Below, in pieces: positions 1-62,440 of a stretch of 64,000 nucleotides of DNA. Both the position numbers and the translations under genes were made by a program. Source of the stretch: Labia minor (Eukaryota; Arthropoda; Insecta; Dermaptera; Spongiphoridae); NCBI GenBank assembly GCA_963082975.1, contig OY720350.1:20430910-20494909 (forward strand), read 5' to 3'. The notes under the pieces were generated by a model. The model had not been told where the DNA came from. It did not search any database and saw only the letters and a list, made by a program, of their open reading frames with translations. The number at the start of each line of letters is the position of its first letter. Within the stretch, counting starts at the first letter, position 1.

Positions 1-771
1 TTTTAATAAAAATGTGTATATATATTAATGAAATTATTAATTTCAAATTAGAAATAACGTTGATATTTTATTTACAAAGAATTATTTTTTTAAGTATTTC
101 AACCGAATAAGGATAATTTTTGCTTTTTTTTCATCATTCATCTTTCATTTTTCATCTCATTCATATATATAGGTATCTTTCTTTCTTTTCTTCGACTTGT
201 AGTTCGTTCGACCGTCCTTCTGCCCTTCCTCGATTTCCCCTCCGTCTTCAGCTCACCTGAACCGCCCCCCCTCCCTCGCACCTGGTGACGTAGAAAGGTT
301 GGCATGAGTCATCGCGGTCGGGTCGATTCCCGACCAGACACACACACAAACTCACACTGACACACACGGCACATCTGCTTGCGTAAGCAGCTCAATACCT
401 CCATCTCTGTCTCTCCTCAGGCCCTTCTATCCAAAGGCCTACCAACCCCTCCCCCCTCCTTTTATCCAACCTACCCACCATCCCCCTTCCCTTCTCTTAC
501 ACTCATTAATGTTGCGTGCACCCGCTCTCTTTTGCACTTATATAACACCTGGAAGGCTTTAAATATTTGCTAGTAACCAAATTGCAAAACATCATTCCGA
601 AAATGATTTATTATTGTTAAAGCGCTAAATCATATATGAATAAGATTATAATAAATATTTTATTTTTTTTGTTATAATAACAACATTTTAAATCATTTCT
701 TATACACTAAAAGCTGCATTTTTACTTCTTATAACATCCTTTATATATATATTATCAATGGTTTTTTTTTT
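1..771. other. Intergenic, with a GC-richer unique island at about 190-560
   Basis: No gene seen. The flanks are AT-rich, but 190-560 is a pyrimidine-rich, GC-richer unique stretch with one AP-1 site and a CA-rich run near 340-365. The open frame in this stretch is low complexity (Ser/Pro/Leu) and does not look coding. A cis-regulatory role is inference from base composition and the AP-1 site. Confidence 0.4.
305..311. promoter_or_regulatory. AP-1 site TGAGTCA in full palindrome ATGAGTCAT
   Basis: Exact AP-1 (Jun/Fos-type bZIP) heptamer in the extended ATGASTCAT form, in a GC-richer unique island. The motif is seen directly; binding is inferred from the family consensus. Confidence 0.45.
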
Positions 772-1331
772 ACTATAGTACTATAATATTGCGATCACGA
801 AAATTTTCGATGTCGAGATTTTGATGTTTTGATACGTTTTGAAGGTCCCTAAGTCATTTTCTCTAAGGTTGAGAAAAATGTTTTATTTTATTTTATTTTT
901 TTTTTTGTGTGTGAGTACAAGCATTATTCAAAATTCGTAGTTTTCTATCAACTTTTAAGAAATGTAACTCATCCAGAAGAGGGTCTTTACCTACCATCTT
1001 TTGATTTTTTTCCTCTAAACTGGCCGTAAAAATAAAGATATAGGTTTGATAGTTTTTCACATGATTAAAAATTGTATAAAACTGCTTTATATAGAATTTC
1101 TGCTTGACTGAATCGCTGAAAGTACCTGAATTAATTTTTTAACACGACTGCAAATCACGCGCCAGCACGTGACGTGGTGACATCAACAAAGAGCCAAACA
1201 CGCACTGGTTCAATATATATATTTATTAATTTTTATTTTATAATTTATAATTAATTAAATTTAATTTAAATATAATATATGTTAATTAATCCAATTCAAA
1301 TTTGCGAGAAATTTGAGTGGAGACACTCCAG
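772..1331 (+). mobile_element. Helentron-like (HINE/DINE-1-like) family A, copy 1
   Basis: Begins after a T-run at a degenerate ACTATAGTACTATA, continues into the family's GCGATCACGAAAATTTTCGA block, and ends with the 3' hairpin GAGTG-GAGA-CACTC followed by CAGCTTATTTT. The sub-terminal inverted repeat before the hairpin has decayed (GCGAGAAATTT). It shares its whole middle with the copies at 20870 and 57858. No coding capacity. Confidence 0.7.
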
Positions 1332-1514
1332 CTTATTTTAGTTTGTATTTATTTTAATATATTATTATATTATATAATTAAAAACATAAAAAAATTATGA
1401 AAATAATTAATTTTAATTTTTTGTAAAAAACGATTTTTAATTATTTATTAGATCAATATTAATTAAATTTTATCTTTATTATAATTATGATTATATCATC
1501 ATATTAAAATGTTC

Positions 1515-1572
<58 letters not shown>

Positions 1573-3344
1573 ATTAAATTAAATAATTTTAAGATTTTCA
1601 AAATAACTATAAATCGAAGGCCAGTCGAATAAATAAAAAAAATAGTAATAGTTAAATGCATTTTTCATATTTTTATAAAATTTTATAGCTAATATAAACA
1701 AATAACTTTAACGTTTTAGTAAAACTATAAATAATAAAATAATATATATAAAATTTTTGGAGTTAATTTCTTTAAATAGATTATATTGATATATTTATAT
1801 ATAAACAAATTTTGATAACGACCTTATGATATATATCTTTTTCAAATGGTCTTTTAAAGTAATTTATTTGAAACGAAAACATACCTGTGATAATATCTTT
1901 CACAAATGTTTCATCTATCTGATATTATCTCTTTATTGTATATTTTTCCCATCCAGTGTTTTAATAATATAATCTCTCACCTGGTCTAACCTTTAAAATT
2001 TGAAATTTTTATTTTCATATATTATCATTTGGAAAAATTAAATATATTATATATATATATATATGTTCGTTTGTTTTCTTTTTTTATATATACATATATC
2101 TATATTATTATTTTTTTGAAATATTTAAATAACCTTAAAAAAAATTAATCGTGTAATAAAAATTATAAGATTTTTAATTAATTTTTTTCTAATTAATTAT
2201 CGATATAATTAATCAATTTTAATTTATTAAAAATTTTAAATTTCAAATAAGTTTAGTTCAATTCACTTTAGTTTTAGTTTTACAAGAATAAATTAAAATT
2301 AAACATTTAATAAATTCTACTGATGAAACCTAGATAATTAATTAATAGTTAAAAATAATAATAAATTGTATAATATAATAAATAAAAGATCAAAGGACAT
2401 GAGAAAAAAGTTAAAAAAAAATTAATTAAGAAATATAATTAATTTGTCTTAAGATCCAATCACTTATTTATTTTTTAAATTTGAATTTATTTCTCTTATA
2501 ATATATAAAATTAAAAAAATACCCACTGATTTATAGTCATACATTTAATATATTTCATTGATGGCCTTAAATCGTAGGTAATAAATTGAAAACTTCATTT
2601 TAAGTTATCAATTCTTATTAATTACATCGATGTTCGTATATCATTCATAGAATACGATATGAATATAAAGAAATAAAAGTAGTGTTTGTTTTTTTTTTGT
2701 TTTTTGTTTTTTTTTTTTTTGAAATCATTTTATCAACAGCAACAACTTTGTTATTAACAACTCAATAAATATGAAATATAATCATTATTTTATGGATTTC
2801 TCTCTAAAACAACTTTATTAATGGAGCGAACCTTCTCCCCTCTCCTTTCACCGCTGCACCCTCCTCTTCACACTTTTCGTTTAATTATTTGTCCAATGCA
2901 AATGAACGAAAGAGAACAAGTCAAGTGTAATGAGATGATCAGATATTTATCACATGAACAAATACATTAATGAAAGGGGAGAAAAGACATAACAACTATA
3001 TTATAATACAAATATCAATTATTTTACTTTTAATAATTTATTGTTTTATTCATTAAATATGTGTAGATAGTAATAAATTATTAATTTATTTATTTTCTAG
3101 TTTTGATGTGATATTATCATATTACTTTCAATATCTTATTACAAATTTAATTGTTAACATGTCTATAAAATTACAGATTTAAGAGTTTAAAATTCAGATA
3201 TATATATATATCATGGATAAACGAATAATAAATACTTTTGGGCACGGGGTGGGGAGTTAAGTTCCCTTAAACTGCACAAATATGCCACCGCGTACTTATT
3301 TTATTGTATTTTGCACACAAAAGTCTTCTTACTCAGTCATTTTT
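1332..3344. other. AT-rich sequence, no gene
   Basis: Nearly pure A/T with runs and a long TA microsatellite (about 1525-1569). A short GC-richer patch at 2820-2870 has pyrimidine runs. I see no coding, RNA or terminal-repeat signal here. Confidence 0.6.
1525..1569. repeat. (TA)n microsatellite
   Basis: Uninterrupted TA dinucleotide run of about 45 bases. Confidence 0.9.
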
Positions 3345-3692
3345 ACCAACCGACGATAGTAAGGGAAGGGTTATTTTCACACCAAATTTCACATTTTTTT
3401 ACATATCTCCACAAATCATGCACTTTGTATTGGTTTTATCCTCGGGAAAAATCATCTTCATTAGTTTTTTCTTAATTTTAAATTTTATGACGTCACCCAG
3501 CCCTTCACGACGTCACTTCCAGCGCCTCCTTATATATTATAAATAAAATAAAATTCAAAATATTTATGTTATATCCATATCGGTTTTTTATTGCATTAAT
3601 AGATACACATAAATTATTTGAAATTTTTTTCTGTAGGTGGAAATTAATTTATTTCAAACCATCGGTCGGTTCTGCGCCTGGCCACAGGTCAA
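3345..3692 (+). mobile_element. Helentron-like family B, copy 1
   Basis: Starts TTTT-ACCAACCGACGATAGT. It ends with the complementary sub-terminal repeat ATCGGTCGGT, then the hairpin CCTG-GCCA-CAGG, then TCAACTTATTTT. Inside are one exact TGACGTCA (3488) and a decayed partner (CGACGTCA, 3508) 20 bases away. The middle part with the GTCC tandem repeat is deleted relative to the copies at 24054 and 60576. Small open frames here are repeat sequence, not genes. Confidence 0.75.
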
Positions 3693-6600
3693 CTTATTTT
3701 TTTTATTTCATTTTAATTATAGAATTGCATTTTGAATTTGAAAAAATAGATCCAAATAAAAATACTTTCAAATGTAGAATTGAATATTAATTAAAAAAAA
3801 ATCATTTTGAATTGATACTCAATCTTCACTCTCTTCTTAGTACACTTTTACATAATAAAATTTTCTCCTAAAAAATCATTCAGAAAGTTAAAGAATACAT
3901 TGGTTGTGAAGCTCAAAATGATATATAAGTTGTTTGAGTCTGAAAATGAAAAAAAATTTTAAAAAAATATAGAAAGAAAGCAGGTGTATGTTAATATCTG
4001 AAAAAATTATATGTATATATTGAAGTCTATAACCCTTTAAAGAGTGGTATATAATCATTTTATACCTTTGACTTATGTTAATTAATGTCGATTATAGAGA
4101 TAAGAAAGGGTCAAATTTTTTGTTTATTTTTTTTTCTAAGGAATTCTCTCCTTTCCTACCCTCTTCTACTCGAATAATGATAATATTGATACTCCTAGAA
4201 TTTTCCAATCCCCCTATCGGAATTGAGTTTTTGGAGCATTCAAGGACAATTAATTACTACCTTTAAATGGGGATTGAAGATAAGGGTTTTGAAAATGATT
4301 TAATCAATTTTATTAACACAATCATTTATTTATAATACAAACATAATACAAATTTTTAATAATACCAAAAAATAAATTTTATTTAAATAAAAAACTGAAT
4401 AAAATTATATATTGATAAATTATTTAAATTTTTATTTTTATTGAATAAAGCACGATTAAATTATTTTATTAAAATTATATATTCTTTTGTATTTTTATAA
4501 AATTTTATGAACATATCGGAAAACACATAGAAGAGCTCATCCCATACCAATACAGTTGATCTTGTGAAACAAGTTTTCATTTTATTTCTATAATTTTTTT
4601 TTTTTTGCTAATTTCAACAAATTCTCTCATATTATTATTTTTTTTTTATATAATATACATATACATATTACTGACATGAGAATACTTGAAGTCTAAAATT
4701 ATTTCTATTGTGAATTGGACCTTGAAATTTGAAATTAAAAATACTAATATTAGATATAGGAAGCTTCAGGTCAAATATACTATATATATATTTTTTAATA
4801 TCAAAATATTCCTCTTCAAATAATTTTGTATTTTATGTACACCATTTTATTCTTCTCCAATTCCGCTTGTTGAATTTGCACATATTTAAAATTTAACGAA
4901 TTCTAAATTTTTCGGACTTTACTTTTTGTTTAGACTATCCTTTATATCCACTTGTTTTTATTTATTTATTTAATTTTTTATCTTTTTCATAATTTTTATT
5001 AATTCAATAAAGTTAAAATATCATAAAAGAATAAGATCTTATTTTTTTAAGTGTATTTATTTCTTATGCTAAAATTGAATGGAATTATTTCACCATTAGA
5101 AGTGGATTTCACACTTTGACTGATGCTATTAATTTCCTATTTATTAGCACAACACATGTCATTTAATTAGTGTATCGGTCATCGTGACTCATCCAACCCT
5201 GATGCTTATGAGATCATACCAAGCGGAGGGTATTTTTTTGAAAAAGTATATTTAAAAAAAAAATTCGGAGGTGGGGTGGGGGATAAAAGAGGAAGGGTTT
5301 TCAAGTAGAGGGTAGTTTACCCTTCTCCATTCCGCAATGATCGTGGTGACTCAGCAAACAGCTGATTTTTGTCACCCTCTTCTTCATTCCACTCGTTGCA
5401 TTGTATTTGGTACTAACAAGTAAATAGAATCAAATAGCCAAAGTGGGATGATGGGTGCAAATAGCCAGGAAGGGAGAGGAGGGAGGGTCGGTAATCGTTT
5501 GCAAATCACTCAACCACAAGTGAAAAATGGAAAAAAGGACGGGCGTTGAACGAAGGAAACTCTGGAACGTGGCGTGGCATTTTTTTTTTATTATATTCTT
5601 CTCTTTTCCGACAAACCACTTGTAGCCACCAAATTCTGTCGTAAAAAAAAGAACGAAAAATAAATCAAACGATTAAAGATAGAAAAGAATTAATCTTAAA
5701 GGGTAGATAAATTTTATTCATGGATTTGGGATTCTTTATTGATTTACCACCCCCTCCTCCCTCGCACCCTCCTCTCTTTCCAACTAACAAACAAAAAAAA
5801 AATTTATTTACCTAACAAGAATATGTCATGAATTTTTATTGTCTTTTTATGCATTCTATCCGGAATCGTGTTAAAAAAGTAATCCAAATGGGCTATAATT
5901 CAAATGGAAATTTAATTATTATTTTTTAAAAGAGAAACTCTTTTCAAGGTGTATATTTAATGTGTAAATTAATGATTATATTAAAAGAGAATAACAATTT
6001 CATTATTTCTGTTAAAATATTCACCCTGACTTCTTATATATCTTTGTAATAGAGTAATAAACTCTCATTCCCCGCATCCCTTTCATATAAGCATTATCCT
6101 GTTTTAGTATTTTATGATGGTAATATAATACAAGGAAGATTTAATTAAATGAATTCGAGAGAATTTTTTTTATTTAAAATAAAATAAATAAATCTTTGGA
6201 AATTTGAAAAATTAGTAAAAAAAAATTTCATTTTATTCTTTTAGAATTAGATTTATAATTTAACACACGGTGTACATATAAATATATATATATATATATA
6301 TATCAAACGATTGACATATTCTATTTTAAGGATATATTATTGGAGGAGGGAGTATAAGTTTCTTTTTTAAAGTAAACTTTCAATTACCCATATTCGTTTT
6401 CAATCCATCTCAATTTAATAAAAAAGATATTTTATTGTTAAAAATTTCAACTGAACTAAATAAGAAATGCTTCATATTTTCATAAATTTTTGTTCTAAAA
6501 CAAATCAGCTAAAAAAAGTAAAATTGTTCCCGAAAAATTGATAAAAAAAATCTGTGAAAACCGTTTATTACAAAATGTTCTCATTTATCACATTAAAACT

Positions 6601-8283: not shown

Positions 8284-8290
8284 TGACTCA
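8284..8290. promoter_or_regulatory. AP-1 site TGACTCA in full palindrome ATGACTCAT
   Basis: Optimal 9-base AP-1 palindrome inside a unique GC-richer island at about 8140-8390. The overlapping short open frame has no recognisable domain and is not called. Confidence 0.45.
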
Positions 8291-8400
8291 TCCAAGCTCC
8301 ACACCTACACACGCACACCAACCAATAAAGGCCTTGAGGAAATTACGCAAGGTCCTTGGACTCTGAGTCTCTTTCTTTTTTCCCTCAACTTCTTGTATGC

Positions 8401-9288
8401 TCCCCTTTTATATACTTATTCTATTCTATATTATTTAAATCTTTCTCCTATCTCTTTTTTTCTCCCCCCCCTCCCTCCAAAAAAAGGTGTATTCAATATT
8501 ATAACAAAAAATAAAATATAAAAAAAAATGTTCTCTAAAAATATTTAACGATCACTCGACAAAATAGAAAATATATTTAATGAATTAAAAAAAAACAGGG
8601 GGATAATTGAAAATCCCACATTTTTCTTAAACCCTTCCCATTCAATGAATGATCCTTAATTTTATTAAAAGTCTGTTTATTACCAAATTAAATTGTTAAT
8701 TATTTTAACCTTATAATGACATTATTACTCTCTTATATAATAGTTTTAATTTTTCCGTTGTTGATCTTACTACATAGTACTACTAAATTCGATTAAAATA
8801 GTTATATTTAACAAAACTTAAAAAAAAGATAAAACTCATTACTCAACTCAAAAAAATCTTAAATATATATATATTAGAATTATTATGAATAAAAATTTTT
8901 AAAATTATATTATATATATTATATTGTATAAATTCATTTGAAATATAATACCATATATTCATCCTCTCTAATAATATCAAATTAAATAACGAAATAATTA
9001 ATTTTTCGTTCAAAAACTGAAACAGGGTAAAAATTTATTTAGAATTTTCTATTCTTTATTTATTTAATTATAATTTAAATCGTAAAGTTAATTACTATAA
9101 AATAAATCATGAATTATTTTTTATTTTGTTTTATTTTAAAGAATAAACTATTAAATGTATTTTAAATTTTTTTTTTTTAAAAATATCTTTATTTATACTA
9201 TTTTTGATTAAAATATTGTAAAAAAAAACAATTTTTTGAGAAATTAGGACGCAATGAGTAACTTTCTTTAATATCTACATATACTTAT

Positions 9289-9319
<31 letters not shown>

Positions 9320-10805
9320 TTGTCCAAATAAGCATTATTTAATATCTTTCTTATAAAAGAAAGATATTATTATAATTATTAATTATAAAAAGGTATATAT
9401 ATATATTAATAACATTCCTTTTTTTATAAAATAAAATTTTACCTATATTATTAATTCATAGGAAAACTTTATATTTTTTTTTCTTTTATTTATTAGCATT
9501 TGAAAATAATTTATTTATTCTATTTGATGAACATAAATGGCTAACATAAATAGGCGTCATAGTGACCGAGAGCCTATCTATGAGTCATTCTGCTTATCAT
9601 TTCGAGTTATGTATGTTATAATCGTCCAAGCAGTCGAAAAGGAAATCGAGTATATACCCTGACACCCCCCATATGAGGGGGAGGCAAAGTTCAATGACGT
9701 TCATTACGATAACAAAAAAAAAATAAAAGGAATGTTTTAGGGAGAAGGAAAGGAGAAGGTGGGGAATCTTATATATTAATTCTTGGATTACTAAATGAAA
9801 TAGAAAGTGAAGCGAGTCAACCGTAAACATTTGTAATGAATATTTTCACTTTAAACATTTATATAATTTAAAAAAAAATAATTTTTTTTTCTTATAAATT
9901 ATAATTTTTAAATTTTTTTTTTTTTTTTTTATTTAATGAAAAAATTATAATTTTATTTTTAAAATATATATTTTCATATGAAATATTTTCTTAAATTTTT
10001 AATTGATTTTTGTCTCGAGGAAACTAATGAAACTTTAGAAGAGAGGGTGGGAATCATACATCAGTATAGTAAAGTACATTCGAAAATAAATTAAAATTTA
10101 AAAGTTAATCTCGAACTCTATATAATATTTATCATTCATTTTTATTATTTTGACCATTGAAGAATAAATTAAAAGCATTATAAATATTTGGAACAATATC
10201 TTATCGAAAATTTTATATTACTATATATCATATGTTAAAATCAAATAAACAAGAGTTTTTCTCAAAATAATAAATAAGTAATAATAAATACACCATCGTT
10301 TTATTCTTTCTAAAACAAATAATAATTTAATTATTTTTTTTTTATTTTATAAACATGATTTTATTTATATTTATTTCCTGATGCGTCATTTGGGTGTTCT
10401 ATGCATCCGTCTGAATGAATTCATCCTCAAAAGCAAAGAGGAGAGTCTCATCAGTTTGATTTATTAAAACAGGAAACTTTTGATTATACTATTTAGATTA
10501 TTCTATTTAATATATGATTTCAAAACGGATACACTTTAAAAGGATCATTTTCAAATTAAAATAATATCAAAAAAATAAATAAATAACAAACAAACTGTAA
10601 GATATCGACGCATCTCCAAATATACAATAATAAAACTTAGAATTGAAATTTTTAATGAAAATAACAAATATAAGTATATATATTATCAAAATATTGATTT
10701 ATGTGGATTATTTATGTGGATATTATGAATTGATCAGTAATAAATTAAATTCAAAGTAGAGCAGTTTTTAAATTAAACTATAGATTTTTAATAGTCTCGA
10801 GTCTG
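8401..10805. other. Intergenic AT-rich sequence with an island at about 9540-9800
   Basis: Mostly A/T runs and TA repeats (about 9290-9318). The island at 9540-9800 is unique, GC-richer and has one AP-1 palindrome. No gene seen on either strand. Confidence 0.5.
9581..9587. promoter_or_regulatory. AP-1 site TGAGTCA in full palindrome ATGAGTCAT
   Basis: Extended AP-1 palindrome in the 9540-9800 island. Confidence 0.4.
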
Positions 10806-23999: not shown

Positions 24000-24053
24000 A
24001 ATAGGGTTAATATAGCCTTGATTATAAAAGTGATGAGAAGTAAAAAAAATAAG

Positions 24054-24692
24054 TTGACCTGTGGCCAGGTCCGAACCGACCGACTGTTTGAAATAAATTA
24101 ATTTCCAGCTACAGAAACAATTTCAAATAATTTTAATATATCTATTAATGTAATAAAAAACAGATATGGATATAACATAAATATTTTTAATTTTATTTTA
24201 TTTATAATATATAGCAGAAGTAGCCGGCGTTGCCGGCGTTACCCGAGGCTGTGACGTCATATAATTTTAAATTAAGAAAAACATAATGAAGATGATTTTT
24301 CTCGAGGATAAAACCAATACATTCGTGGTGATATGTAAAAAAATCTCCTTATGTGAAATTTGGTGCGAAAATAACCCTTCCCTTCTTATCGTCGATCGCT
24401 AATACTACCACTTCCGGTTTCCGGATTTGCACCAAAAGTTGATCAATTCATCCCACTGATGCATTAAGTAAATATACCAAATTTCATCAAAATCCGTTAA
24501 GCCGTTCAGGCTGTACACATCTATACGGACGGACAGACGGACAGACGGACAGACGGACAGACGGACGGACAGACATCATGCTAAAAATACTTTTTTCTGT
24601 TAAGAAAATGCATGATTCGTGGAGATATGTAAAAATCTCCACATGTGAAATTTGGTGTGAAAACAATACCTCCCTTACTATCGTCGGTCGGT
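24054..24692 (-). mobile_element. Helentron-like family B, copy 3 (near full length)
   Basis: On the minus strand it starts ACCGACCGACGATAGTAAGG, passes the GTCC/GTCT tandem tract, CGGATTTTGATGAAATTTGG and ATCAACTTTTGGTGC, and ends with CGGTCGGTTCGG, hairpin CCTG-GCCA-CAGG and TCAACTTATTTT. One TGACGTCA at 24252; the second is replaced here by a GCCGGCGTT doublet. No coding capacity. Confidence 0.8.
24525..24573. repeat. GGACAGAC tandem repeat inside the family B element
   Basis: About six 8-base units close to GGACAGAC in a row. The same tract is shorter at 61056-61090 and absent at 55079-55640, so its length varies between copies. Confidence 0.85.
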
Positions 24693-27000
24693 AATTATAC
24701 TTATACATAAATAGACAACGACCTTACTTTCTCAGTAATTTTAACTATTTTAAAAGAATTGAATATAATAAAATATAATCATTAAAAACAATTAAAATTG
24801 TCCAAATAAAAAAAAATAAATAAAAAACCGAGAACAATAAATAATAGAAATTGATTAAATGAAATTAACTTAAATTTGAATATTATTGAATTATATACAT
24901 ATAATTATAATATATTAAAGGTGTATAATTTTATATTTTATTTATATTAAATAGTACAAATATACAATAAATAATATGATAAGAATTTCAATGTTAATTT
25001 ATATTGAAAAACAATGAATTTTGAAAAAATAATTTTCAGTGTCAAATTTAAATTATATTATATAATCGTTTTACAAAATGCCTTTGATTACCTTCATTCC
25101 TGTACCCCCACCTTCCCCCTCCTTCCTCAGCTTGGTAATACATATTATAGTATTTTTGTTTATGGATATATTTCATTATTAATTTCAATTCTTTTCAACA
25201 TATGTATAATTATTTTAATATTAAAATTTCCTGTATATTAACCATTTTATGTATATAAATATATAAATAAAATTAATAAACTATATTCACAAATTTATAA
25301 ACCGTTTTTTCTTTTAACAATCATCTTTAATATAGTAAATAATTCTACAATTATGGAAAAAATTATTTTGAAACATACTTTGTATATAATTCTAAATAGA
25401 TAATTTTGATTCATACATTTTGTTAAGAAATAATCAGATTTATATAGTAGAAGATGATTCAGAAGAGATTGAATATATATATCAACAGATAAGGTATCAA
25501 TTATATCAGAGATGACAAATCACTGTGTTGATATATATATATATATTCAATTGTATATTTTGAATATATATACGATATAATTAAAATTTATTTTTTTATA
25601 TAAAATAAATTTTTATAGATATTTTTTTTTTAAGTTTAAAATTTAAATTAATTTAAAAGTTATAGGAGGTTATTATTATAAATTGGAATTCTTGTTTATT
25701 GCATTTTGTAATGTTTACACTTTACTCTCATCTCTCAAATATTATTGACCTTTTTTTGGCAAGTACTTGAAAAAAAAATATAAAATATATGAAGTGACAA
25801 AATAAACTTTGCCAAGTTTGATAAATAAACCAGAAAAATATAATGAAAACAGGTGAAAAATGAATAACAAAATAATAAGATGGATTATTTATTAGAACAT
25901 TAATAATAATTGAGTATGCTTATGAGCAGAGAGTGTATAAAAAAATCCCTATTATTTTCATTCTAAAAGATGATAATAAATAATAGATGAATAATAAATA
26001 ATTAAAATATTTAATGATTTATTATAAATAATAATAAATAATAAATTATAAATTAAATATATCTTTATTCATTTTATTAATAATAATTTTTCTTTTGTTT
26101 CAGGTAAGAAAAAATTCTTTGCTTTCTAAAATCTACGCAATTTCACTTATAATGCGATGAGAATGTAAGTTTTTATTATACTATTTTGACTCTAAAACAT
26201 ATAGTGTTATTATAGTATATATCTACATATATCATCTTTTTTTAAATTTACGAGAAAAGATGAGATTCAGAATCCAAGAGAGTTATTAATTATGATACTT
26301 ATTTATAAAAATAAATATATATAATAAAATATATAATATAATAAAATATATAATATAATAAAATTAGATAATCTAAATAGAAGTTTATGATTAATTGGTC
26401 ATATATAACACAGTATTTGAACATTTGTTTTTTAAATATATACATATCTTTTATTTGGTATTACCTAATTATTCTCAATAAATTCTCAATAAATTAAAAG
26501 TAGATTTTTTATTAATATATATATATATATATATAGGTATATCATATAAATGGATTAATATTTTTAAAATAGTTATAATATTTATTTATGAGAAAGTTTG
26601 ACGTATAAAATTATATATATATAATAACGTCAATGCAAATTACTTTAATTTTTTATTTGACACTAATTATTATTTATTGAAAATTATCATTCAACATAAA
26701 GGATTAAACTCCCGTCAATAGATATTTATAATTTTCTTAAATTGAATTAATAAGTTTATATTAAATATAAATATTTATTGTATCTATGATATTTATGAAT
26801 TGATTTATTATTTATTTGATTAATGGAAATTTATATTAAAAAAAATATTTCATAAATGAAATTGAAGTCAAATTCAATATTGAAGATTAATAATTAATTA
26901 TTCTCGTAAATATTTTTTTTAGAAAATTATTAACAGTTTATATATATATATGAACAAAATATACTTTGTACAATATATATTTCAGTAAATTGTTGTATAC

Positions 27001-32046: not shown

Positions 32047-35000
32047 GTAGGTTTTTCTTGGCTCTTTCTATTCTTTTTTATCTATTTTTTTTTTCTTTCT
32101 TTTTCTTCATTTGCCTATTGTTCTCCTGTTGGATTGGCTCAAGGATAGGGCCCACGCGTGCCACTCTATAAGGCCCGGTTGGTGTGCGCTTTTAACTAGG
32201 TTGCGAAGGGCTTACTCATCGCGGCCAACATTTTGCCCCGAGCACCTCCGACTTGCTATCTTTTCCAAATAACCAAACATCCATTTACTCCCTGAATTCC
32301 ATCACCATCATAGAATTAAGAAGAATTTTGCATGATTATAATTATTTATTCATATTGATCACAATAACATTAACAACAACAACAGCAACTAAAATCAAAA
32401 CAATTTTTTAATTTTTTAAAAGGAATATAATTATAATACATTAAATATACTATCTAATCATATAAAATATATATAACAAACAAATTTCATTCACAAATGT
32501 AAACAAACATCATTTTATTATATATATATAACATAATTATATGAATTTGCAAATTTTAAATAATCACATTTTTATTTTTAATTAATGAATAAATGATATG
32601 CATTACTATTCATTAATTTTCTTCATAATCAAATCTTTTCTTTATATATATGATTGATAAAATTAATTTATATATAAGTATTTATCAAATAATATATTTT
32701 AATTGGAAGTATTATTAAATACCATTCATGTACTTCTTTTTATATTTATTTATTTATATAAATAAATAAAAAATTCGTTGAAATATATTTATATATATTA
32801 ATTAAACATTAACATCAATATTTCTATTTATTACTCATTTCGTATATTTAACTATTTTTCTTTAAAATAAATTCTCTTATTCTTTTTAGAAGAAAATCTT
32901 ATTAATATTAAATTTAAAAGATACTATTTAAAAATTTTAAATAATAATTATATGAATTTTTGATTTAAATATCCTTTGTATATATTATATATAATTTGGA
33001 AAAATTTAAAATACAATAAAGTAAATTAATGTCTATTATTTCTTATCAATTAATTAATAGTATTTATTATAATATTATTATATTTAGTATCTAAAAGATT
33101 ACTTAAAAAAATGCTTTTTCGAAAGGGTTTACATCAATTATTGTTATGCGCATTAAGAATATGCATAAATTATTATAAGCATAAAATTGATTATATACAA
33201 TCAAATGAATCCTCAATATATCTATATATCATAAAAGAATATTATTTGATTATTTGCATTTAAATAAATATTATCGCTGAATATTTTAATTCATTATTCA
33301 AAATTATATTTATTTTTATAATTTATAATAATTTAATGTAAGTAAGTAATTTAAACAAAAATATACGTAAATAAAAAAAATAAAAAAAATTTTTATAATT
33401 ATAATCTAGTTTAGCAAAATTAATAGACATTTATTAATTTATATTGATTTTTTTTTATAAGTAAATAAATATTACAATAATAAATATAAATTCTATATTT
33501 CTATGTTAAGATCTCTTTAATAATGAATTTAATTATCTCATCAAGTTTACTTACATTATAATGATCATTACATTACACAAAACTTATATAACAACGATTA
33601 TATATTATAATGTATTTACTTGATAAAAAAAAAAAAAAAAAAAAAAAAAACAACTATCTTATTACTTCGTATTTGTCTTATTTGAAAGATAGAAAGAGAG
33701 AGGGCAATCTATGAAAAAAAATAGTTTAATATATGGATTAATAAAAAAGTGTGCGTGTTTATCCGCTTAGGCAGACTCCGATGAGTCATCAAACATTGAC
33801 GCTATTGAATAGGCCAAGCCTGATGAATGACCTTATTGTCAATGATGTTTGAAGGGGAAGCCCTCTCCATTAGAAATGATTATAAACATTTTAAATCGGA
33901 ATGTGTTGTGTTTCAATTTTCCATTGATATGATTTAATATGAGCTATAAATGAATCACCAATTTACACATAACCTCATTAATTTCATATAATTAATTCAT
34001 ATTTGATGAACTTTAGGGGGAGGATTGTTTTCTATGCAAATAAACTGTAGTAGAGGAGAATTTCAATTACCATTATTATTATTTATTGGTTATTCCAGTG
34101 GTTCTCAACCTTTTTTTTTACCGCGGCACACTTTTAACGGTTTAAAAATTTGAAAAAAAGTGATCCCAAAAACGGTTTACCTTTTATTTTATTTTTTTTT
34201 AGAACCAAATTGAAACAATTTAGAAAAAAAAGTCGGAAGTCATAATCTTGCGGCGCACTGGTTGAGAATCACTATGTTATTCAATTAAATCAACCCCCCC
34301 CCCCGCCTTTCTCTCAGGTGTTGACTTCATTAATCACCTATCCCACAATTATATACTTATTATTTCTTATTATTGTACTATACATCCCAAAAGATTTATT
34401 ATTATTATTATTATTACGATGAAATGATCATAAATTAAGAAAATAGATTCATTGTAGAAACTGAATGATTGGTGATTTCAATGCGCGTTTTTTTTTCTTT
34501 TTTTGTTTATCCAGGCGGCCATCGTGAATTCCAACGCAGACACAAAGACCTCTGCGAGGACGCTTTATTACCACCGAGTGGTCGTCCCTTGGGTGCGACA
34601 TTCTCGGACCCGGCAACACCCCCGGGATCACCTACCTCCCCAGCGGCCGATATTGACGGCCACCCTGCATCCCGTGTTCTCCCCTTCCTCTACCTTGGCA
34701 ACCAACACGATGCCGAAGACCTCGCGGGTCTCAAGGCCTTAGGTGTAACCCGTGTACTCAACGTTACTTCACATCTCCCTGGATATCACGAAGACCACGG
34801 AATCACATATAAACAACTACCAGCAAGCGATTCTGGCCAACAAAACCTTAAACAGTACTTCGAGGAAGCCTTCCATTATATCGGTGAGTTATTTCTATTG
34901 ATTTCAATATAAAACTTTTTTATTAAATTAAAATATTTATAAATGTTGTGTATAGTAGTAGCATATTAAATTTACATTTTCAATTATATTTTTAAAAATT

Positions 35001-38000
35001 AATATTAATTTTATTAATAATTAATAAAAAAAATTTTAAATAAATCATTTAGGTATAGAAAATAAAATTACTATATTAAACATATTTAAAAGTACATATT
35101 TAGTTGATAATTAATTAATGGATGAGATCACAAAGAGAAAAAAATTAATGAAAAAATATAATTTAGCCTTCTAGAGAGTTTCTCTTCCCGGCAAAGGACT
35201 TCCTTAAGTATAAACTTATTAGTGAATGATATACGCATTAAAATAATATAGTAGATATTTAGTATTAAGCAGCTGTTGGGAAAGAGAAACAGCATTTGGT
35301 TTTTAAGACTTGATGACCCGTTTGGGTCAAAATGGACCAACAGTTTTTTTTTCTTCTTTTGGGTGAAAGAGAAGATGTAAGTCCCTTCCCCTCCTCTGTT
35401 TATTCTCTCAATCTCCTTCTATTCTTTTTGTTTTTTACAATTGTATTTATATTTTTTTGCAAGGTAAAATGCTAGAGAAAGTCCCTTGATGACTAATAAA
35501 TCGTGGCAAAAAAAAAATATTGCTGTTATATATATAATACTTATATTTGAAAGTTTTAAGATCTTTTTATATATATTTCAATTACTTTAATAAATATTTT
35601 TAAACATATTTCATGTTTTTTTTTTTGTTTTTTTTTTTTTGATAAAAGTAAACAAATTCGTTATCGTAAAGGGCAAGTGGGGTAAAAAGTCGCGTGACTT
35701 CAACTGTGTCGGTATGGCCTCTCATTCCCTATCAGGTGGCCCTTCTCGACAGGTAAAACGGATGAGTCATCTTTAACGACCCTTCGCATTCCAATGGGGA
35801 TGAACTTTGCTTATCTCTCACGTTAACCCTTCCAATAATCACCATCCCCCTTCTTCTTTGATGTCATTGTATTAGATTAAAAGGGAACAAATTACAAAGG
35901 GTGTGATCAAGTTTTGTATTTATTGTGATTCCATTAAATTACACAAACCTATTTGTTAACAATTCTGTTTTTGTTTTTTTTTTGCTTCTTATCTATTGAT
36001 TTTCTGAGTACCCTTGAACAATTCTTTTTCGAATGGGAATGATTTTTCAGTTAAAATTTTTTGAAAATTGAATGACCGCTTATTTAAATACAATATCTTG
36101 GCATGTATCGGACGAAAGGTGTCTCTCGTTTGTGGCTCTGAACCGGTTGGACGATGTTTTGGTATGCGACCTGGTCCGGGTGGGGCTCCTATCCGGCCTT
36201 CGCCAGGCCTTGGATCCCCACCTCCTTAAAGGGCCGAAAATACTTTTATAATAAACAATCAACTTTAAAGACACCCGCGATTTCCGGTGCTTCTAATTTG
36301 ATGACGTCACATGTAAAACAAACCCCTGAGTCAACTCCCCTTCGTTTATTTAAAAGGGTTTCTTGAATGGTTTCCTGTGATTCGATTTCCGAAGCCTTTT
36401 TACGAGATAAGATTGAAATTTAGAACGGAAACAGTTCAGCCTCCGAATGTTGAATGAATTCGCAAGGCGTGAATGAACATATAAGCTTATCGAGACCCTG
36501 ACCACGTGCAAAGCACTCATTGATGTTCGCAATTGCACTGACTGAGTCACAGTAAACGCAGAACTACCGGAAGCTACGACTTATCCATTGAGAGAGAGCA
36601 TCTCTCTCTCTCTCTCTCTCTCTCTCTTCACCTAGACCAGCTATAACGGGTCAATGTACCGTTGTTGTAAACACTTCACTTGAGAAAAATCTTATCGAAG
36701 GGAGGGCGGGAAAAGAGAGCAAGTATTTGATTGGTATATATCGCAATGACCGGAAACGTTTCGACACGGCTTTACGAACTCTGACCCTTTAGACAGGAAA
36801 TCCGATGGATAACCGCACTAGTAAGGTGAACCTTTTGGAGGGTAGGCAGAGCCCGTGCGACCGACCGTTGGGCTGGATGACTCATTTTCGTCAAACTATT
36901 CAGGATGTGAAATAATTCAAAAGGGATGGAGGGCTGTGAATCTGTGTTTGGTAGGGGGAGCGTGAGAATGCTTATCAAACCAGACTTGATGGATATTTCA
37001 ATTCGGAGTGATTACTCATCAGTGCAATTGTTTCCTCCGTTGCTGCTGGTACGTCTCGAATGAATGACTCATTCCGTTATGTAACATATGCTCCATTTAA
37101 AAAAATAAATCCCGCTCTAATTTTTTAAAAATTAATATCCAACTCCTTTAAAGGTATTTTAAGTTAAAAGGCTACATTCTAATCTTAATGGGGGCAAAAA
37201 TAGCAACCAGGCTCCCTAATACACGTGATTTCAAGACGCGCTCTTCTAAATTTAACGCCCATCCCTTTAGGAGTTGAGTCACTAGTGTTTGAGGCCATAC
37301 ACCCTGGGAGGAGCTGAGTCACCAGACTGGATCTCCCGTAGGAGTACAAATTATAAAAACTCGAAATAGATCAGGGTGTTGTTAAATCCTTGAAAAGATT
37401 GACGCATAAAAGGAATATTTGCTATCATATTTCACCCTCATCCCCCTACTCTCTAAAAAAAATGCAATTAAAATACTATCATAAGGCGTTACTGGAATTA
37501 GGTCATAAATATTTACATGAACGATTTAATTTTACACCAAGCATGACGCATTTGGGTGATCTCTTCCGTTTGATCTCTTTTTCTTTTTTTTTTTTTATTA
37601 TTATTATTTTTGAAACGTTTATTTATTTTTGCAAATTTATTGTCTGTTTTAGAGGACGCAAGGAAAACTGGCGCCACCGTAATGGTTCATTGTCAAGCTG
37701 GCATCTCAAGAAGTGCAACCATTGTCATTGCATATGTGATGCGTCATCTCTTCCTCTCCATGGTTGAAGCTTATAAACTGGTCAAACTGGCAAGACCTAT
37801 TATCTCACCGAACCTCAATTTCATGGGCCAGCTTCTTGAATTAGAACAAGCTTTAAGAGGAAATACCCAAGGTACTGCTGAGGCAGCCACAGCTGCAGTG
37901 ATTGGAGAGCCCTCCGTACCCAGTGAAACAGCCGCCTGTGCAGCACCTTCCTCATCAACACCGTCAGCCTCCTCCGACGAAAAGCCGCCGTTTCACCAGT

Positions 38001-38056
38001 GCCGTTGGGCGCAAAAACCCCCCGCCGATGAAGTGACATCCGGTTGTAGCGTGTAG
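31992..38056 (+). CDS. DUSP10: Dual-specificity MAP-kinase phosphatase, DUSP10/MKP-5-like (three exons)
   Basis: Joined from 31992-32046, 34515-34883 and 37653-38056: 828 nt, 275 residues plus stop. DUSP10/MKP-5 removes phosphate from Thr and Tyr of the activation loop of JNK and p38; the fly counterpart in function is puckered. Residues 19-32 (GGHREF..LC) match the end of the N-terminal rhodanese/MAPK-binding domain of MKPs; the rest of that domain is absent. Residues 38-70 are a linker with three S/T-P sites (T53, S57, S60). The catalytic domain spans about 72-214: VLPFLYLGN, general acid Asp124 in LPASDS, active site HCQAGISRS with Cys155 and Arg161, then the conserved RPIISPNLNFMGQLLELE. 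The tail (about 60 residues) is Ala/Ser/Pro-rich. All three exons agree in phase 1. The family is certain. DUSP10 rather than another MKP rests on the HLPGYH, QNLKQYFEEAF and PIISPNLNFMG segments. The short N-terminus suggests an alternative isoform. Confidence 0.9.
33625..33650. repeat. Poly(A) tract of 26 bases
   Basis: Uninterrupted run of A. No retroposon body is visible upstream, so its origin is not shown. Confidence 0.8.
33782..33788. promoter_or_regulatory. Intron 1 AP-1 site in palindrome ATGAGTCAT
   Basis: Extended AP-1 palindrome in a unique GC-richer island within intron 1, followed at 33833 by GTCAATGATG-type sequence. Confidence 0.5.
34096..34274 (+). mobile_element. Non-autonomous hAT element, CAGTGATTCTCAACC family, copy 4 (intronic)
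   Basis: Ends CAGTGGTTCTCAACC and GGTTGAGAATCACTA, with flanks GGTTATTC and TGTTATTC (7 of 8). The shortest copy, with one interior block instead of two. It lies 240 bases before the exon 2 acceptor and does not touch the splice signals. Confidence 0.9.
34515..34883 (+). CDS. DUSP10: DUSP10-like exon 2
   Basis: Acceptor TTTATCCAG|GC, donor ATCG|GTGAGT. Codes for residues 19-141 plus one base: the tail of the rhodanese domain, the S/T-P linker, and the first half of the catalytic domain including the general acid Asp124. GC-rich compared with the flanking introns, as expected for a conserved coding exon. Confidence 0.93.
35763..37321. promoter_or_regulatory. Intron 2 AP-1/CRE cluster (candidate enhancer)
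   Basis: Exact AP-1 heptamers start at 35763, 36327, 36543, 36878, 37065, 37275 and 37315; three of these (35763, 36878, 37065) are full ATGASTCAT palindromes. A CRE/ATF octamer TGACGTCA sits at 36302. Seven sites in 2.8 kb compares with well under one expected at this base composition. Known: the JNK phosphatase puckered in flies is induced by JNK through AP-1. Inference: an auto-feedback enhancer for this gene. Confidence 0.65.
36601..36629. repeat. (TC)n microsatellite
   Basis: CT run of about 29 bases, preceded directly by GAGAGAGAGCA (36590-36600), so the two can fold back on each other. Confidence 0.85.
37653..38056 (+). CDS. DUSP10: DUSP10-like exon 3 (terminal coding exon)
   Basis: Acceptor CTGTTTTAG|AG; the split codon gives Glu142. 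Carries the active-site loop HCQAGISRS (Cys155, Arg161, Ser162), the RPIISPNLNFMG helix region and the Ala/Ser/Pro-rich tail ending SGCSV before TAG at 38054. Using the next AG two bases later would break the frame, so this acceptor is secure. Confidence 0.94.
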
Positions 38057-41269: not shown

Positions 41270-41530
41270 TGTGTTATTTGAACTGGTGAATATAAAAGGG
41301 GTAGGGTCTGTTATAATTGCAATTAAACGTTGTTTGTTTATCTAATCGTGTGATAAACTTGAGCTGCTGATCTCATCAAACAAAAGGGAAGGTAGCAACA
41401 ATTCGACGAATTCAATTTGCACTCTTCGAGGGTAATTTTACAGAGACGGATCTCTTTTTCTTTCTTTCTTGCTTTGCTGCAGCTGAGAATGCATGAGTCA
41501 TTGGGAACTCCATGGCACTCGATTTAACTC
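41270..41530. promoter_or_regulatory. Unique GC-richer island downstream of the gene, with AP-1 palindrome
   Basis: ATGAGTCAT at 41493-41501, near GCTGCAGCTGAG and TTGCAATTAAACG. A second GC-richer patch follows at about 41820-41950. No gene recognised. Candidate distal enhancer by composition and motif. Confidence 0.4.
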
Positions 41531-53893: not shown

Positions 53894-55078
53894 GATAAAT
53901 ATAATACTAAAAATATACTAATAAAATTTTATATTCTGAAGATAAGCAAATTTTAAATTATTTTCAAGATGGTGGGGGTTAGTTAGTTTTCCGAATTTAT
54001 AAAATATTTATTTAATATTTACAATTAAAATTTTCGTTTTTTTTTCGTACATTCAGTTTGAAATTAATGAAAACAAATTCTATTATAGACATTTCTATTC
54101 AATTATTTGGAAACTTTTCTAAGAAATTCTTTAGACTGAATTGTATAGTAAATGTATTTTCTTTTATTTAACGGTTGAATAAATAATAGAAGCTGAGCAA
54201 AAACCAGGTGACTCATGGAAGGGGATCTTTTGAGAGACATCCGTATAATTTAAAGGGGAAATTCATCTATTGTGTTCTTTGGGACTGGAAGATATCAAAA
54301 CAACCCCTGGCAAGAGATGAAAACAAAAATTTGAAAAATTTGGACTATTATATTGGAGGTGAAAACAAAAATTTGAAATTTTTGAAATGTTATATTGGAT
54401 GTTAAAATATAGGTATTAGTCTTAAAAAAAAAATTGATTAATAATTTATTCATTATCCAGTATCCAATATTTGAATAATTATTTAAAAAAAAATTACTTC
54501 AAATGCCCTAATTCTTTATTTAATTTTGTTTTATTTTAAATTTAAATTAAATTATATTTAAATTAAGTGGATAAAAAGCTAATCGTTAGCAATCATCGTA
54601 TGATAAATAAGTAAGAATTGTGAATTGATTTAAGGTGAAGAATTTGGAAATGTTTTAATTAACAAATTTAATAGGAATATAATCTTTGTTTTTTATTTAA
54701 AATTGAATATCAATTAAAATAGATCATCTTTTGTTTCTAATCTAATATAGATTATGCAAATTCATTGCATGAATGTTGAGAAATGTGGATGAATGTTGTA
54801 TTATTTATTAATTTATTTATAAGAATCATTGTTTGTCAAATAGAAAGATAAGTATTATTCACAATTAAATGTAAATTAAATTAAGTGTTCTATTAACAAA
54901 GAATTATGAAATGTTTTTTTTTCTTTAATATCTTAACACATTTAAAAATCTATATTTATAAATAAGTAATCAGAACCCTTTGACAATATAAATGAAAAAA
55001 TTGTAAAATACCATAACGTCCATTGGAATTTTTTTTTTACAATTTGTTACTTTGAAGATAGATTTAAAAATTAATAAG
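53894..55078. other. AT-rich intergenic with one AP-1 patch
   Basis: 54190-54320 is a GC-richer unique patch with TGACTCA at 54209-54215. It holds a small frame with two copies of GAAAACAAAAATTTGAA (54320 and 54360). Otherwise A/T-rich; no gene. Confidence 0.45.
54209..54215. promoter_or_regulatory. AP-1 site TGACTCA
   Basis: Exact heptamer followed by T, in a short unique patch. Confidence 0.3.
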
Positions 55079-55640
55079 TTGACCTGTGGCCAGGCGCAGA
55101 ACCGACCGACGGTTTGAAATAAATTAATTTCCAGCTACAGAAACAATTTCAAATAATTTAAATGTATCTATTAATCCAATAAAAAACAGATATGGATATA
55201 ACATAAATATTCTTAATTTTATTTTATTTATAATATATAAGGAGGCGCTAGCTGTGACGTCATGAGGGCTTGGTGACGTCATATAATTTTAAATTAAGAA
55301 AAAACTAATGAAGATGATTTTTCCCGAGGATAAAACCAATACAAAGTGGAGATTTGTAAAAAATCTCATGTGAAATTTGGTGTGAAAATAACCCTTCCCT
55401 TTCTATCGTCGATCGGTAATACTACTACTTCTGGTTTCCGGATCTACACCAAAAGTTGATCAATTCATCATACTGATGCATTAAGTAAATACAACAAATT
55501 TCATCAAAGTTGAGCCGTTCAAGCTGTACACATCTAACTTTTTTCTGTTTAGAAAATGCATGATTCGTGGAGATATGTAAAAATCTCCACATGTGAAATT
55601 TGGTGTGAAAACAATACCTCCCTTACTATCGTCGGTCGGT
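55079..55640 (-). mobile_element. Helentron-like family B, copy 5 (tandem tract deleted)
   Basis: Minus strand: TTTTTACCGACCGACG start, CATATCTCCACGAATCATGC, then a deletion that removes the GTCC tract (about 55535). Ends CCGTCGGTCGGT, hairpin CCTG-GCCA-CAGG, TCAACTTATT. Two TGACGTCA octamers start at 55255 and 55274. Confidence 0.8.
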
Positions 55641-56560
55641 AAAAATTTAAAATATTTTGGCACAATAAACTGTAAATGAAGAAATATTAATTTATTATAT
55701 ATAAGAAAAATTAAATATAATTTTATTGATAAAATAAAATTAAAAAATTAAAATCAATATTTTAAGTTTTTTAAATATTATATTTTTATATATTATAGTT
55801 TATTGTACGATATATTATATAAATTTTTACTATATAATCAACAATTCTGTAAGTATATTTAAAAAAAAAATTTATTGAAACATTTGAACAAGAATTGAAA
55901 ATTTCATTCCTTTAACATTTTAATACACAGACATAAAAAAAATGCATTATCTCAAATTTTTTTTTACAATTTCTTCAGTATATTTTGTATATTTGTAGAT
56001 ATAATGTAAGTAGGTAAATCAATGATTTAAACAGGAGATGAGTTATAATCTCTATTACTAATCCATCGTTTTTAAAATAATTATCTCTAATTATAGATAA
56101 ATTTCAATTGAAAATAAAATCCAAATATTTTGTCTGATTCTTTATGTATGTCTTCAAACTAATAATTATACCGAATGGTTTAGATAGTATATATCCTGAA
56201 AACAGCCAATAAAAAGGATAAGATTTTATATTCTGGATTCTTGGAATATCATCTATGCATATTCACACCAATATTCCTACATTTTTCTTAAATGATGTAA
56301 AAAAGCAAAAAAAAAATAAATAATTATATAATTTCATGATTTCTTTTATTAAAAAGAACTAAAATTTACCAAATCAATTTAAAAAGTCCTTGGGAATTAT
56401 GAGTCACATTTTTACAATTTATTGATTATTTACTAATAAATAATTCATTTTATTTTAAATTTACATATTTTATTTTAATTTTGATTTTTTTGAAAATAAA
56501 AATACAATTTGTCAACACATCTTAAAACAAAAAGGTAGCTGTTTTAAATAAATTATTTTT
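55641..56560. other. AT-rich intergenic, no gene
   Basis: A/T-rich. One AP-1 heptamer at 56400-56406 (TGAGTCA) in a poorly distinct context. Nothing else seen. Confidence 0.5.
56400..56406. promoter_or_regulatory. AP-1 site TGAGTCA
   Basis: Exact heptamer in AT-rich sequence without an obvious island; weak candidate. Confidence 0.2.
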
Positions 56561-59873: not shown

Positions 59874-60575
59874 ATTTTTGTAAATGTTGTTCTAAAATTT
59901 ATAATAAAAAAATTATTTATAAAATCCATTTAAAATAAAAAAAAAAAAAAAAAATTATCCCAAAAAAGAGAATTCAGATTTGAATTGAAATTTATTCTCC
60001 TGGATGGATAGGCCGCTAGCAATACGATTGAACGGATATAATTTCGTTTCAAAATAACAACAAGAAAACAACAATTTTTAAATTACGTATGAACTTATAC
60101 TTTTATTTAAATATTTTTCTTAATCTAATATATTAACTGTAAATCTGATCCTTCATTTATTTAAACATTTTATTAATAATTCTTAAATAAGAAATTGTTA
60201 TTTATTTTAATAAGGTGTATTATATTATTAAAAGTAAAACGCATTAGTATTAATAACTGCAAAAAAAAAAACAACAAATTTTGCTGATTTAGTAAATGAG
60301 ACTGGCATATAAGATTTCATAATATTTGTTTACAAATGCGAAATCTTATTCGATAAAATGAATCATAAAGTCTATTCTACGAATTGAATTCATCCATTTA
60401 CAATATACAGTAATGGATGGATTAGATTATAGATATGTAATAAGAAATAGAAATGATTATTTAAATTATTTTCTCTAGAAAGAGAAGATTTTCAGAATAC
60501 AAAAATCAAAGTAAAATATAGGAGTATATGATTATGTACCATATATTTAAAATTACTTTATCTACTTTAAATAAG
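59874..60575. other. AT-rich intergenic, no gene
   Basis: A/T-rich with a short GC-richer patch at 60000-60050 (GGATAGGCCGCTAGCAATAC). No feature recognised. Confidence 0.55.
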
Positions 60576-61209
60576 TTGACCTGTGGCCAGGTCCGAACCG
60601 ACCGACGGTTTGAAATAAATTAATTTCCAGCTACAGAAACAATTTCAAATAATTTTAATATATCTATTAATGTAATAAAAAACAGATAGGCATACATAAA
60701 TAATAAATATAAACATTTTTAATTTTATTTTATTTATAATATATATGCAAGACCAGGCTGTGACGTCATGAATAGCTGGATGACGTCATATAATTTTAAA
60801 TCAAGAAAAAACTAATAAATATGATTTTTCTCGAGGATAAAACCAATACAAAGTGCATGATTCGTGCTGATATATAAAAAAATCTCCTTTGGTGTGAAAA
60901 TAACCCTTTCCTTCCTATCGTCGATCGCTAATACTACCACTTCCGGTTTCCGGAATTGCACCAAAAGTTGATCAATTCATCCCACTGATGCATTAAGTAA
61001 ATATACCAAATTTCATCAAAATCGGTTGAGCCGTTCAGGCTGTACACATCTATACGGACGGACAGACGGACCGACAGACGGACGGACAGACATCATGCTA
61101 AAAATACTTTTTTCTGTTTAGAAAATGCATGATTCGTGGAGATATGTAAAAATCTCCACATGTGAAATTTGGTGTGAAAACAATACCTCCCTTACTAACG
61201 TCGGTCTGT
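60576..61209 (-). mobile_element. Helentron-like family B, copy 6 (near full length)
   Basis: Minus strand: TTTTTACAGACCGACG, GTCC/GTCT tandem (complement of 61056-61090), CGATTTTGATGAAATTTGG and ATCAACTTTTGGTGC. Then CCGGAAACCGGAAGTGG, CCGTCGGTCGGTTCGG, hairpin CCTG-GCCA-CAGG, TCAACTTATTT. TGACGTCA at 60761 and 60781, exactly 20 bases apart. Confidence 0.82.
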
Positions 61210-61217
61210 AAAAATAC

Positions 61218-61219
<2 letters not shown>

Positions 61220-61252
<33 letters not shown>
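61220..61252. repeat. (AAT)n microsatellite
   Basis: Eleven or so ATA/AAT units directly beside the family B element border. Confidence 0.85.
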
Positions 61253-61318
61253 GTAAAAAATAAAATTAAATAAATTCAATCATTAATATGAAATAATTCC
61301 AGTAGCTAATGAGTTAAG

Positions 61319-61325
61319 TGACTCA
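61319..61325. promoter_or_regulatory. AP-1 site TGACTCA
   Basis: Exact heptamer in AT-rich sequence (AAGTGACTCAGAATGACTT). Confidence 0.25.
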
Positions 61326-61652
61326 GAATGACTTGTTAAACAAATTCAATAAATATATCATGCGATCAGCGAGTGTTTTTGTATTTATTAATTTATTTAT
61401 TTTTGAATATTTATAACTTTTAAAGAAAACAATAGAGACATTGCATAATTAGATGTGTAATTATTTTATTATACTTTGCCCTATTGAATATTACCAAATT
61501 TTCGTTTTCGATTTCCTTTTTTTTTTAATTTGTTTTTAATTTATTATAATATTTCATTTGATGTTTTTTACAAAGGTAATATTTTTGGAAAACATCAAAA
61601 AAATAAATTTATATAAGTTTTTGGAAGATCTTGTTAAGATTGTGTGAAAGGA

Positions 61653-61720
61653 TCCGTTTTACTGATCATAGAACACCTTTACCTCGACTTGATTGGTACT
61701 GTCCTTTTGTAGTATGAACA
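61653..61720 (+). mobile_element. SINE 3' fragment, family of 48873-49140
   Basis: CCGTTTTACTGATCATAGAA, CTCGACTTGAT and GTCCTTTTGTAGTATG match the 3' end of the SINE at 48873-49140 (minus) and part of 10806-10990. Confidence 0.5.
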
Positions 61721-61989
61721 AAAGTCAGAGGATTTTTGATTTCAACAACCATATTCCTACATCCGTTCCTATTTTGAGATATTTCCATTCAATTCTCAAT
61801 TCCTATCCTCTCTCATCGGTTTTTTTCCAATTGATTTCTCTACTATCTTTTATAATAATATTATTATATATCGAGTTGCCTTTTTGACTTGAATCACACA
61901 AGCATTTTTATATCTTCTTTTAATAATCTTTTATGTTCAATCCACTCTCTGAAATGTATCAATCCACTTTCTATTATTAATTTAGGAAA

Positions 61990-62440
61990 AGAGGGCGGAG
62001 CCAAAAAGAGGAAGTTAGGAAAACAATAATTCCCCCCTTCGATTTAAGTGAATGTTCTTGTCAAAGGGATGACACGTCCTAAACTATCCAATTTGTGGGA
62101 TAAACTTGAATGGTGTGGTGGGGTGAATCCCTTGCATTCAATTGGCCTTATTTCGGCTTATCTGTTTCGATACACTCGTTTATGTTAGTGAATCAGCTTT
62201 GGAGTGTGTGCGGTGGATGTGTCAATGAAGGGGGTGGGGTGGGGGTGGGGGGTGAGCAGGCAAGGGTGCTAATCGACGTTCAAAACACAGCCGCCATCTG
62301 CCCCACTTGACGTCATCGGTGACAGCAGCCACCCCAAAGAAATTTCAGTTCAGGGGTCGTCATGGAATATAAGATTCGGGAAGGGATGGAGAAGGGGGAA
62401 GAGGGGGTTAACCGCCACTGTACATTTAATGATCCAACGC
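61990..62440. promoter_or_regulatory. Unique GC-rich island with CRE octamer
   Basis: The GC-richest part of the right end: G-rich GGGGTGGGGGTGGGG at about 62233, GCCGCCATCTGCCCC, TGACGTCA at 62308-62315, then GGTGACAGCAGCC. The open frame across it is Gly/Val low complexity and not called. Confidence 0.4.

Follow-up and report, generated by a model that had tools for sequence, protein, structure and literature searches.

A DUSP10-type phosphatase gene with an excess of AP-1 sites in Labia minor: a candidate for JNK negative feedback

The closest described regulatory systems are from the fly, and they are cited here from excerpts of the respective papers. Drosophila puckered, the DUSP10 orthologue, is established as a target of AP-1 within a negative feedback loop, as summarized in a review (PMC8197226). 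AP-1 motifs have been reported in the regulatory regions of tested genes, puc included (PMC4610234). In the damage-responsive fly WNT (wg/Wnt6) enhancer BRV-B, a short element with several clustered AP-1 sites, the response to damage was lost when three predicted sites were deleted (PMC4786413). Here we describe a window of 64,000 nucleotides (C9:20430910-20494909) in the Labia minor assembly of 604,477,936 bases, which holds most of the introns and two of the exons of a predicted DUSP10/MKP-5-type phosphatase gene together with an excess of AP-1 words. Coordinates are given as x, where x is C9 base 20430909 + x and negative values lie upstream of the window. TGASTCA and ATGASTCAT were counted as AP-1 words and TGACGTCA as the octamer of the cAMP response element (CRE), with reversed words as controls (ACTSAGT for TGASTCA).

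The gene has three coding exons. Exon 1 (coding from -19880 to -19247 within an exon region from -19991 to -19247; open reading frame L026:21-824) carries a rhodanese domain (PF00581, E 3.5e-7). This exon, 19 kb upstream of the window, was invisible to the original prediction. Exon 2 (34515 to 34883, plus strand) encodes a linker followed by the first half of the catalytic domain (DSPc). Exon 3 (37653 to 38056, plus strand) encodes the second half and the C-terminus up to the stop codon, and contains HCQAGISRS, which matches the HCxxGxSRS motif of DUSP10/MKP-5 phosphatases. Intron 1 (-19246 to 34514, of which 1 to 34514 is the window part, plus strand) measures 53.8 kb, and intron 2 (34884 to 37652, plus strand, phase 1) measures 2,769 bases. 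The donor of exon 1 reads G/GTAAGT in phase 1 at -19247, and the acceptor at 34515 is also in phase 1. The splice sites fit the consensus, and joining the three exons there in phase 1 gives a single predicted open frame of 468 amino acids. From start to stop codon the gene spans 57,937 bases (58 kb), beginning 20 kb before the window.

Both the rhodanese exon and the main catalytic exon are closest to DUSP10 in the PDB. The best matches of the former are the DUSP10 chains 2ouc and 3tg1 (E 5.5e-28 and 6.8e-28), with DUSP16 next at 1.8e-10, and those of exon 3 are again DUSP10 chains (E 3.4e-26). Against PF00782, exon 3 scores above the family cut-off (E 2.6e-24), and exon 2, which covers positions 1-68 of 133, reaches 31.2 bits (E 2.2e-7), alone just below the cut-off of 33.5. 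The domain order is that of DUSP10. By homology, therefore, the gene is read as a DUSP10/MKP-5-type phosphatase, in agreement with the original prediction of a JNK-pathway phosphatase. Among the 14 other DSPc places listed genome-wide, from a search that scores the best candidates only, none reads like DUSP10 when compared by eye and without a tree. The gene is likely the counterpart of fly puckered. With puckered it has in common a catalytic domain of the DUSP10 type and an expected role in JNK negative feedback, as well as AP-1 motifs in DNA that is regulatory in the fly and presumably so here (PMC8197226, PMC4610234). Next to DUSP10 (MKP-5), the window gene may be set apart by its AT-rich region, by the length of its coding introns (53.8 and 2.8 kb) and by its dense AP-1 sites. 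Unlike puckered, it has a rhodanese (MAPK-binding) exon, whereas fly Puc, to our knowledge, lacks this domain; induction by AP-1 is known for puckered and predicted here.

The excess of AP-1 words in the window is real. The original prediction had given 21 starts of TGASTCA and a total of eight ATGASTCAT. All 21 starts are exact, the list is complete and free of false entries, and the recount of ATGASTCAT also gives eight. A whole-genome count, which had been proposed as a check, yields a mean expectation per 64 kb of 4.83 for TGASTCA and 0.44 for ATGASTCAT, and the Poisson P values of the window counts against this mean are 4.7e-8 and 2.3e-8, respectively. Across the genome, TGASTCA occurs 45,646 times against 21,602 for its reversed control, and ATGASTCAT is three times commoner than its control (4,142 and 1,368). 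Expectations from base composition are similarly low. Markov models of order 0-2 predict 3.3-6.1 TGASTCA and 0.46-0.69 ATGASTCAT in the window. Shuffles that kept dinucleotides within blocks of 150, 300 or 1000 bases (100 each), and that preserved the GC-rich islands, gave means of 3.5-4.3 for TGASTCA (top single value 10) and 0.43-0.55 for ATGASTCAT (top single value 5). Among 2,240 classes of seven-base words that have four A/T, TGASTCA ranks third, and the two commoner classes are simple-repeat words.

The sites are dense within the gene itself. Between the start and stop codons, where the genome mean predicts 4.38 TGASTCA and 0.40 ATGASTCAT, there are 20 and 10, respectively; the reversed 7-mer ACTSAGT shows no excess (3 vs 2.07 expected). 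Intron 1 contains 13 TGASTCA, seven of them within ATGASTCAT. Intron 2, the candidate core enhancer, holds seven TGASTCA where 0.21 are expected (35763, 36327, 36543, 36878, 37065, 37275 and 37315), and three of these are ATGASTCAT (0.02 expected). A CRE at 36302 also lies in this core. Leaving intron 2 aside, the rest of the window has 14 TGASTCA (4.62 expected) and five ATGASTCAT (0.42 expected). The spacing of the triple 36878-37065-37275, which was picked after the fact, has four matches in the genome including itself, and its reversed control has one.

The 9-mer is concentrated in the gene relative to its surroundings. Outside repeats, 10 of the 13 ATGASTCAT in the surrounding 264 kb fall within the 58 kb of the gene (P 0.00018), and the comparison with the neighbourhood holds when all copies are counted (P 0.00055). 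At the level of GC-rich islands the contrast is suggestive. There are 29 such islands in the 264 kb, and seven repeat and three coding ones were dropped before comparison; AP-1 sites occur in five of nine islands in the gene versus three of 10 outside, and AP-1 or CRE sites in seven of nine versus four of 10.

These observations are best read as AP-1-responsive intronic enhancers in a DUSP10-type gene that serve JNK negative feedback, a reading that we consider probable. In this scheme, stress would activate JNK, which would in turn activate Jun/Fos (AP-1). We infer that AP-1 would bind elements in the introns, with their centre at 35.7-37.4 kb, and raise transcription of the phosphatase, whose presumed substrates are JNK and probably also p38, so that the kinases would be switched off again. 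An intronic element of this size is plausible because deletion of three sites was enough to abolish the response of the fly WNT enhancer, according to the excerpt (PMC4786413). BRV-B differs in belonging to another gene, and the seven sites described here, gathered in one intron, form a predicted element. Among the papers listed by our literature searches, no title or abstract opening mentioned an intronic AP-1 cluster in this gene. The evidence is good, and what it points to was to be expected; the pattern agrees with a textbook feedback loop.

The alternative that survives best is a neighbourhood effect, in which AP-1 words mark enhancers in non-repeat gene islands throughout the genome and a rich window was singled out afterwards. 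Several results weigh against the feedback reading and favour this one. The 100-kb flanks contain 21 and 17 TGASTCA (7.6 expected each), jointly 38 versus 15.1, or 2.5-fold above the genome mean. In non-repeat sequence at GC 0.4-0.5, the flanks carry 1.6 AP-1 sites/kb compared with 2.0 in the window. Relative to its own neighbourhood, the excess of the 7-mer in the gene is modest (20 vs 11.0 expected, P 0.023; 0.041 outside repeats), and the 9-mer alone stays strong. The 14 other DSPc loci (44.7 kb) also have about twice the genome-mean number of TGASTCA (7 vs 3.4 expected). Sites are overdispersed on C1, and with clumping allowed, as estimated from one contig end at the start of C1 (28 bins over 1.8 Mb for the 7-mer, 125 bins for the 9-mer), the number of windows expected per genome is about three with at least 21 TGASTCA and about 0.3 with at least eight ATGASTCAT, which weakens the case from both words.

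Other comparisons speak against a mere neighbourhood effect. For TGASTCA, the 100 sites listed from the first 1.8 Mb on C1 reach at most 11 per 64 kb and 30 per 264 kb, whereas the present locus has 21 and 59. Among the 50 ATGASTCAT listed from the first 8 Mb, the maximum is four and six, as against eight and 16 here (three of the 16 in repeats). The densest short cluster in the listed C1 stretch (C1:612380-613791, five sites in 1.6 kb) is mostly repeat, with four of its five sites in a tandem/inverted repeat. Furthermore, not a single ATGASTCAT is found at the fourteen other DSPc loci. On balance, we regard the neighbourhood effect as unlikely. As a separate observation on the C1 cluster, the four TGASTCA between C1:613278 and 613791 lie within 0.5 kb in a repeat, both tandem and inverted, whose unit measures about 337 bases.

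The extent of the AP-1-rich region has to be restated in this light. The original prediction described a feedback-regulated domain of at least 60 kb. Instead, the gene measures 58 kb, the core is an intron of 2.8 kb, and the flanks are themselves above the genome mean; because of this AP-1 richness of the flanks, the domain has no sharp edge.

A second alternative is that other bZIP dimers (ATF3, CncC/Maf or ATF2/CREB), and not Jun/Fos, act through these sites, which would imply general stress control and no JNK feedback. AP-1 and CRE words are common to several bZIP factors, and this sharing leaves room for such dimers. The sites at 5347 and 37315 (the latter on the other strand) read TGACTCAGC, which we take to fit the antioxidant element of CncC/Maf as well, and CREs are present both in the intron-2 core and at the start codon (36302 and -19887). 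Against this, eight of the 21 sites are ATGASTCAT, the optimum for AP-1, and the gene shows no concentration of CREs outside repeats. We hold control by other dimers to be improbable.

The remaining alternative, that the AP-1/CRE excess is an artefact of repeats, is highly improbable for the AP-1 words: although nine of the 59 AP-1 sites in the 264 kb lie in repeats, 20 of the 21 in the window lie outside them in a self-comparison (the exception is 22138), and the intron-2 core from 36250 to 37350, for which uniqueness was checked genome-wide, occurs once in the genome. Repeat calls otherwise come from self-comparison of the window and, separately, of the 264 kb. For the core sites between 36250 and 37350 the artefact is refuted, but it holds for most CREs.

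Most CREs are indeed tied to repeats. The five non-repeat octamers named in the original prediction (14092, 31632, 36302, 53196 and 62308) are exact and have no match in the self-comparison of either the window or the 264 kb, and they exceed what base composition predicts (0.2-0.3 in the Markov models, 0.20-0.34 in the shuffles). The window total, however, is 13 versus 6.81 expected from the genome mean (Poisson P 0.022), which is not unusual for this genome. TGACGTCA occurs 64,351 times genome-wide, 38 times more often than the reversed word (1,670), and it sits in repeats in eight of 13 cases in the window and 30 of 41 across the 264 kb. Counting all copies, the gene has eight between start and stop codon, which does not stand out from the 6.17 expected. 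Outside repeats, four lie between the start and stop codons and seven elsewhere in the 264 kb, including the one touching the start codon (P 0.31). The locus-wide CRE excess of the original prediction thus falls as a genomic excess, because most CREs sit in repeats, and it was rejected as part of the pattern.

Most of the octamers that were looked at belong to a common dispersed repeat of about 0.65 kb. This repeat has 13 places with at least 500 aligned bases in the 264 kb, counting the query copy, in addition to fragments. One copy lies at 60526 to 61224 (plus strand); together with the copies at 3339-3709, 24037-24701, 55067-55646 and 63155-63461, it accounts for the eight repeat-borne CREs of the window. 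The octamers are typically paired 20 bp apart; among the first 100 genomic matches listed, 62 are in pairs exactly 20 bases apart by a count made by eye. The end of the repeat resembles the tail of an RTE-type long interspersed nuclear element (LINE). Perfect CRE words in the tens of thousands may owe their spread to this repeat. In the downstream flank, three of the four ATGASTCAT are in repeats. Between about 144000 and 157000, three similar units follow one another at intervals of about 5.7 kb; every unit combines the CRE repeat with one ATGASTCAT, and the set resembles a tandem triplication.

Another possible feature of the gene is an internal promoter. The GC-rich non-repeat island at 31529 to 32189 (plus strand) has a CRE at 31632 and an initiator-like TCAGTC at 31743, without a TATA box, and could be an alternative promoter with the first exon of a short form lacking the rhodanese domain. 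The putative exon, ending at 32046, is in phase with exon 2, and its open frame is the longest among candidates of this type. The case for it is weak: when the frame test was applied to 13 donor-like sites in GC-rich islands, four passed, counting this one. In a broader proposal, the 58-kb gene would be among the densest unique AP-1 loci of the genome and would have two promoters, one far upstream for the long rhodanese form and one in the CRE island at 31.5-32.2 kb, beside the AP-1-loaded intron 2, for a puckered-like short form. We offer this proposal as speculative and doubtful. If true, JNK activity would turn on a feedback phosphatase with a kinase specificity unlike that of the resting form. 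At the upstream end, a candidate acceptor seen by eye ahead of exon 1 makes an upstream non-coding exon and promoter possible, and the islands in the upstream flank may be part of the 5' end of the gene. The TGACGTCA at -19887 shares one base with the start codon.

A combined code with other factors was sought and rejected; 23 known motifs were counted up to 200 bases away from the gene's 19 non-repeat AP-1 sites. GAGAGAG was found 15 times vs 3.3 expected (P 2e-6) and was set aside as a simple-repeat word. TTRCGCAA (2 vs 0.05 expected, P 0.0012) barely passes the 23-fold correction and involves two sites only. GGAATG (9 vs 3.6, P 0.012) and the SRF word (2 vs 0.24, P 0.025) fail the correction. 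Near these sites, the two Grainyhead words gave no signal (2 vs 0.62 and 2 vs 1.63 expected), and both STAT words were absent.

Several further AP-1 sites, to which no strand applies, lie outside the core. The site at 305 to 311 is inside ATGAGTCAT, with a local GC of 0.58 across 207 bases. Sites at 5185 and 5347 form a pair (5185 to 5353), as do those at 8284 and 9581 (8284 to 9587), both of which are inside ATGASTCAT. Two other sites are again inside ATGAGTCAT, one at 33782 to 33788, 0.7 kb upstream of exon 2, and one at 41494 to 41500, 3.4 kb downstream of the stop codon. Further downstream, from 125884 to 127711 on the minus strand, open frames show cysteine patterns that we take to be like those of chitin-binding (peritrophin) domains and that perhaps belong to the next gene. 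An Rfam search gave no matches.

The locus shows how simple counts of consensus words, set against their totals in the whole genome, can narrow a likely enhancer down to the kilobase. It also carries a warning, in that the CRE octamer in this genome mainly flags a repeat family and not CREB/ATF control. For the AP-1 words, the present findings suggest that wiring of the puckered type, with AP-1 sites within a JNK phosphatase gene, is present in this 604-Mb genome.

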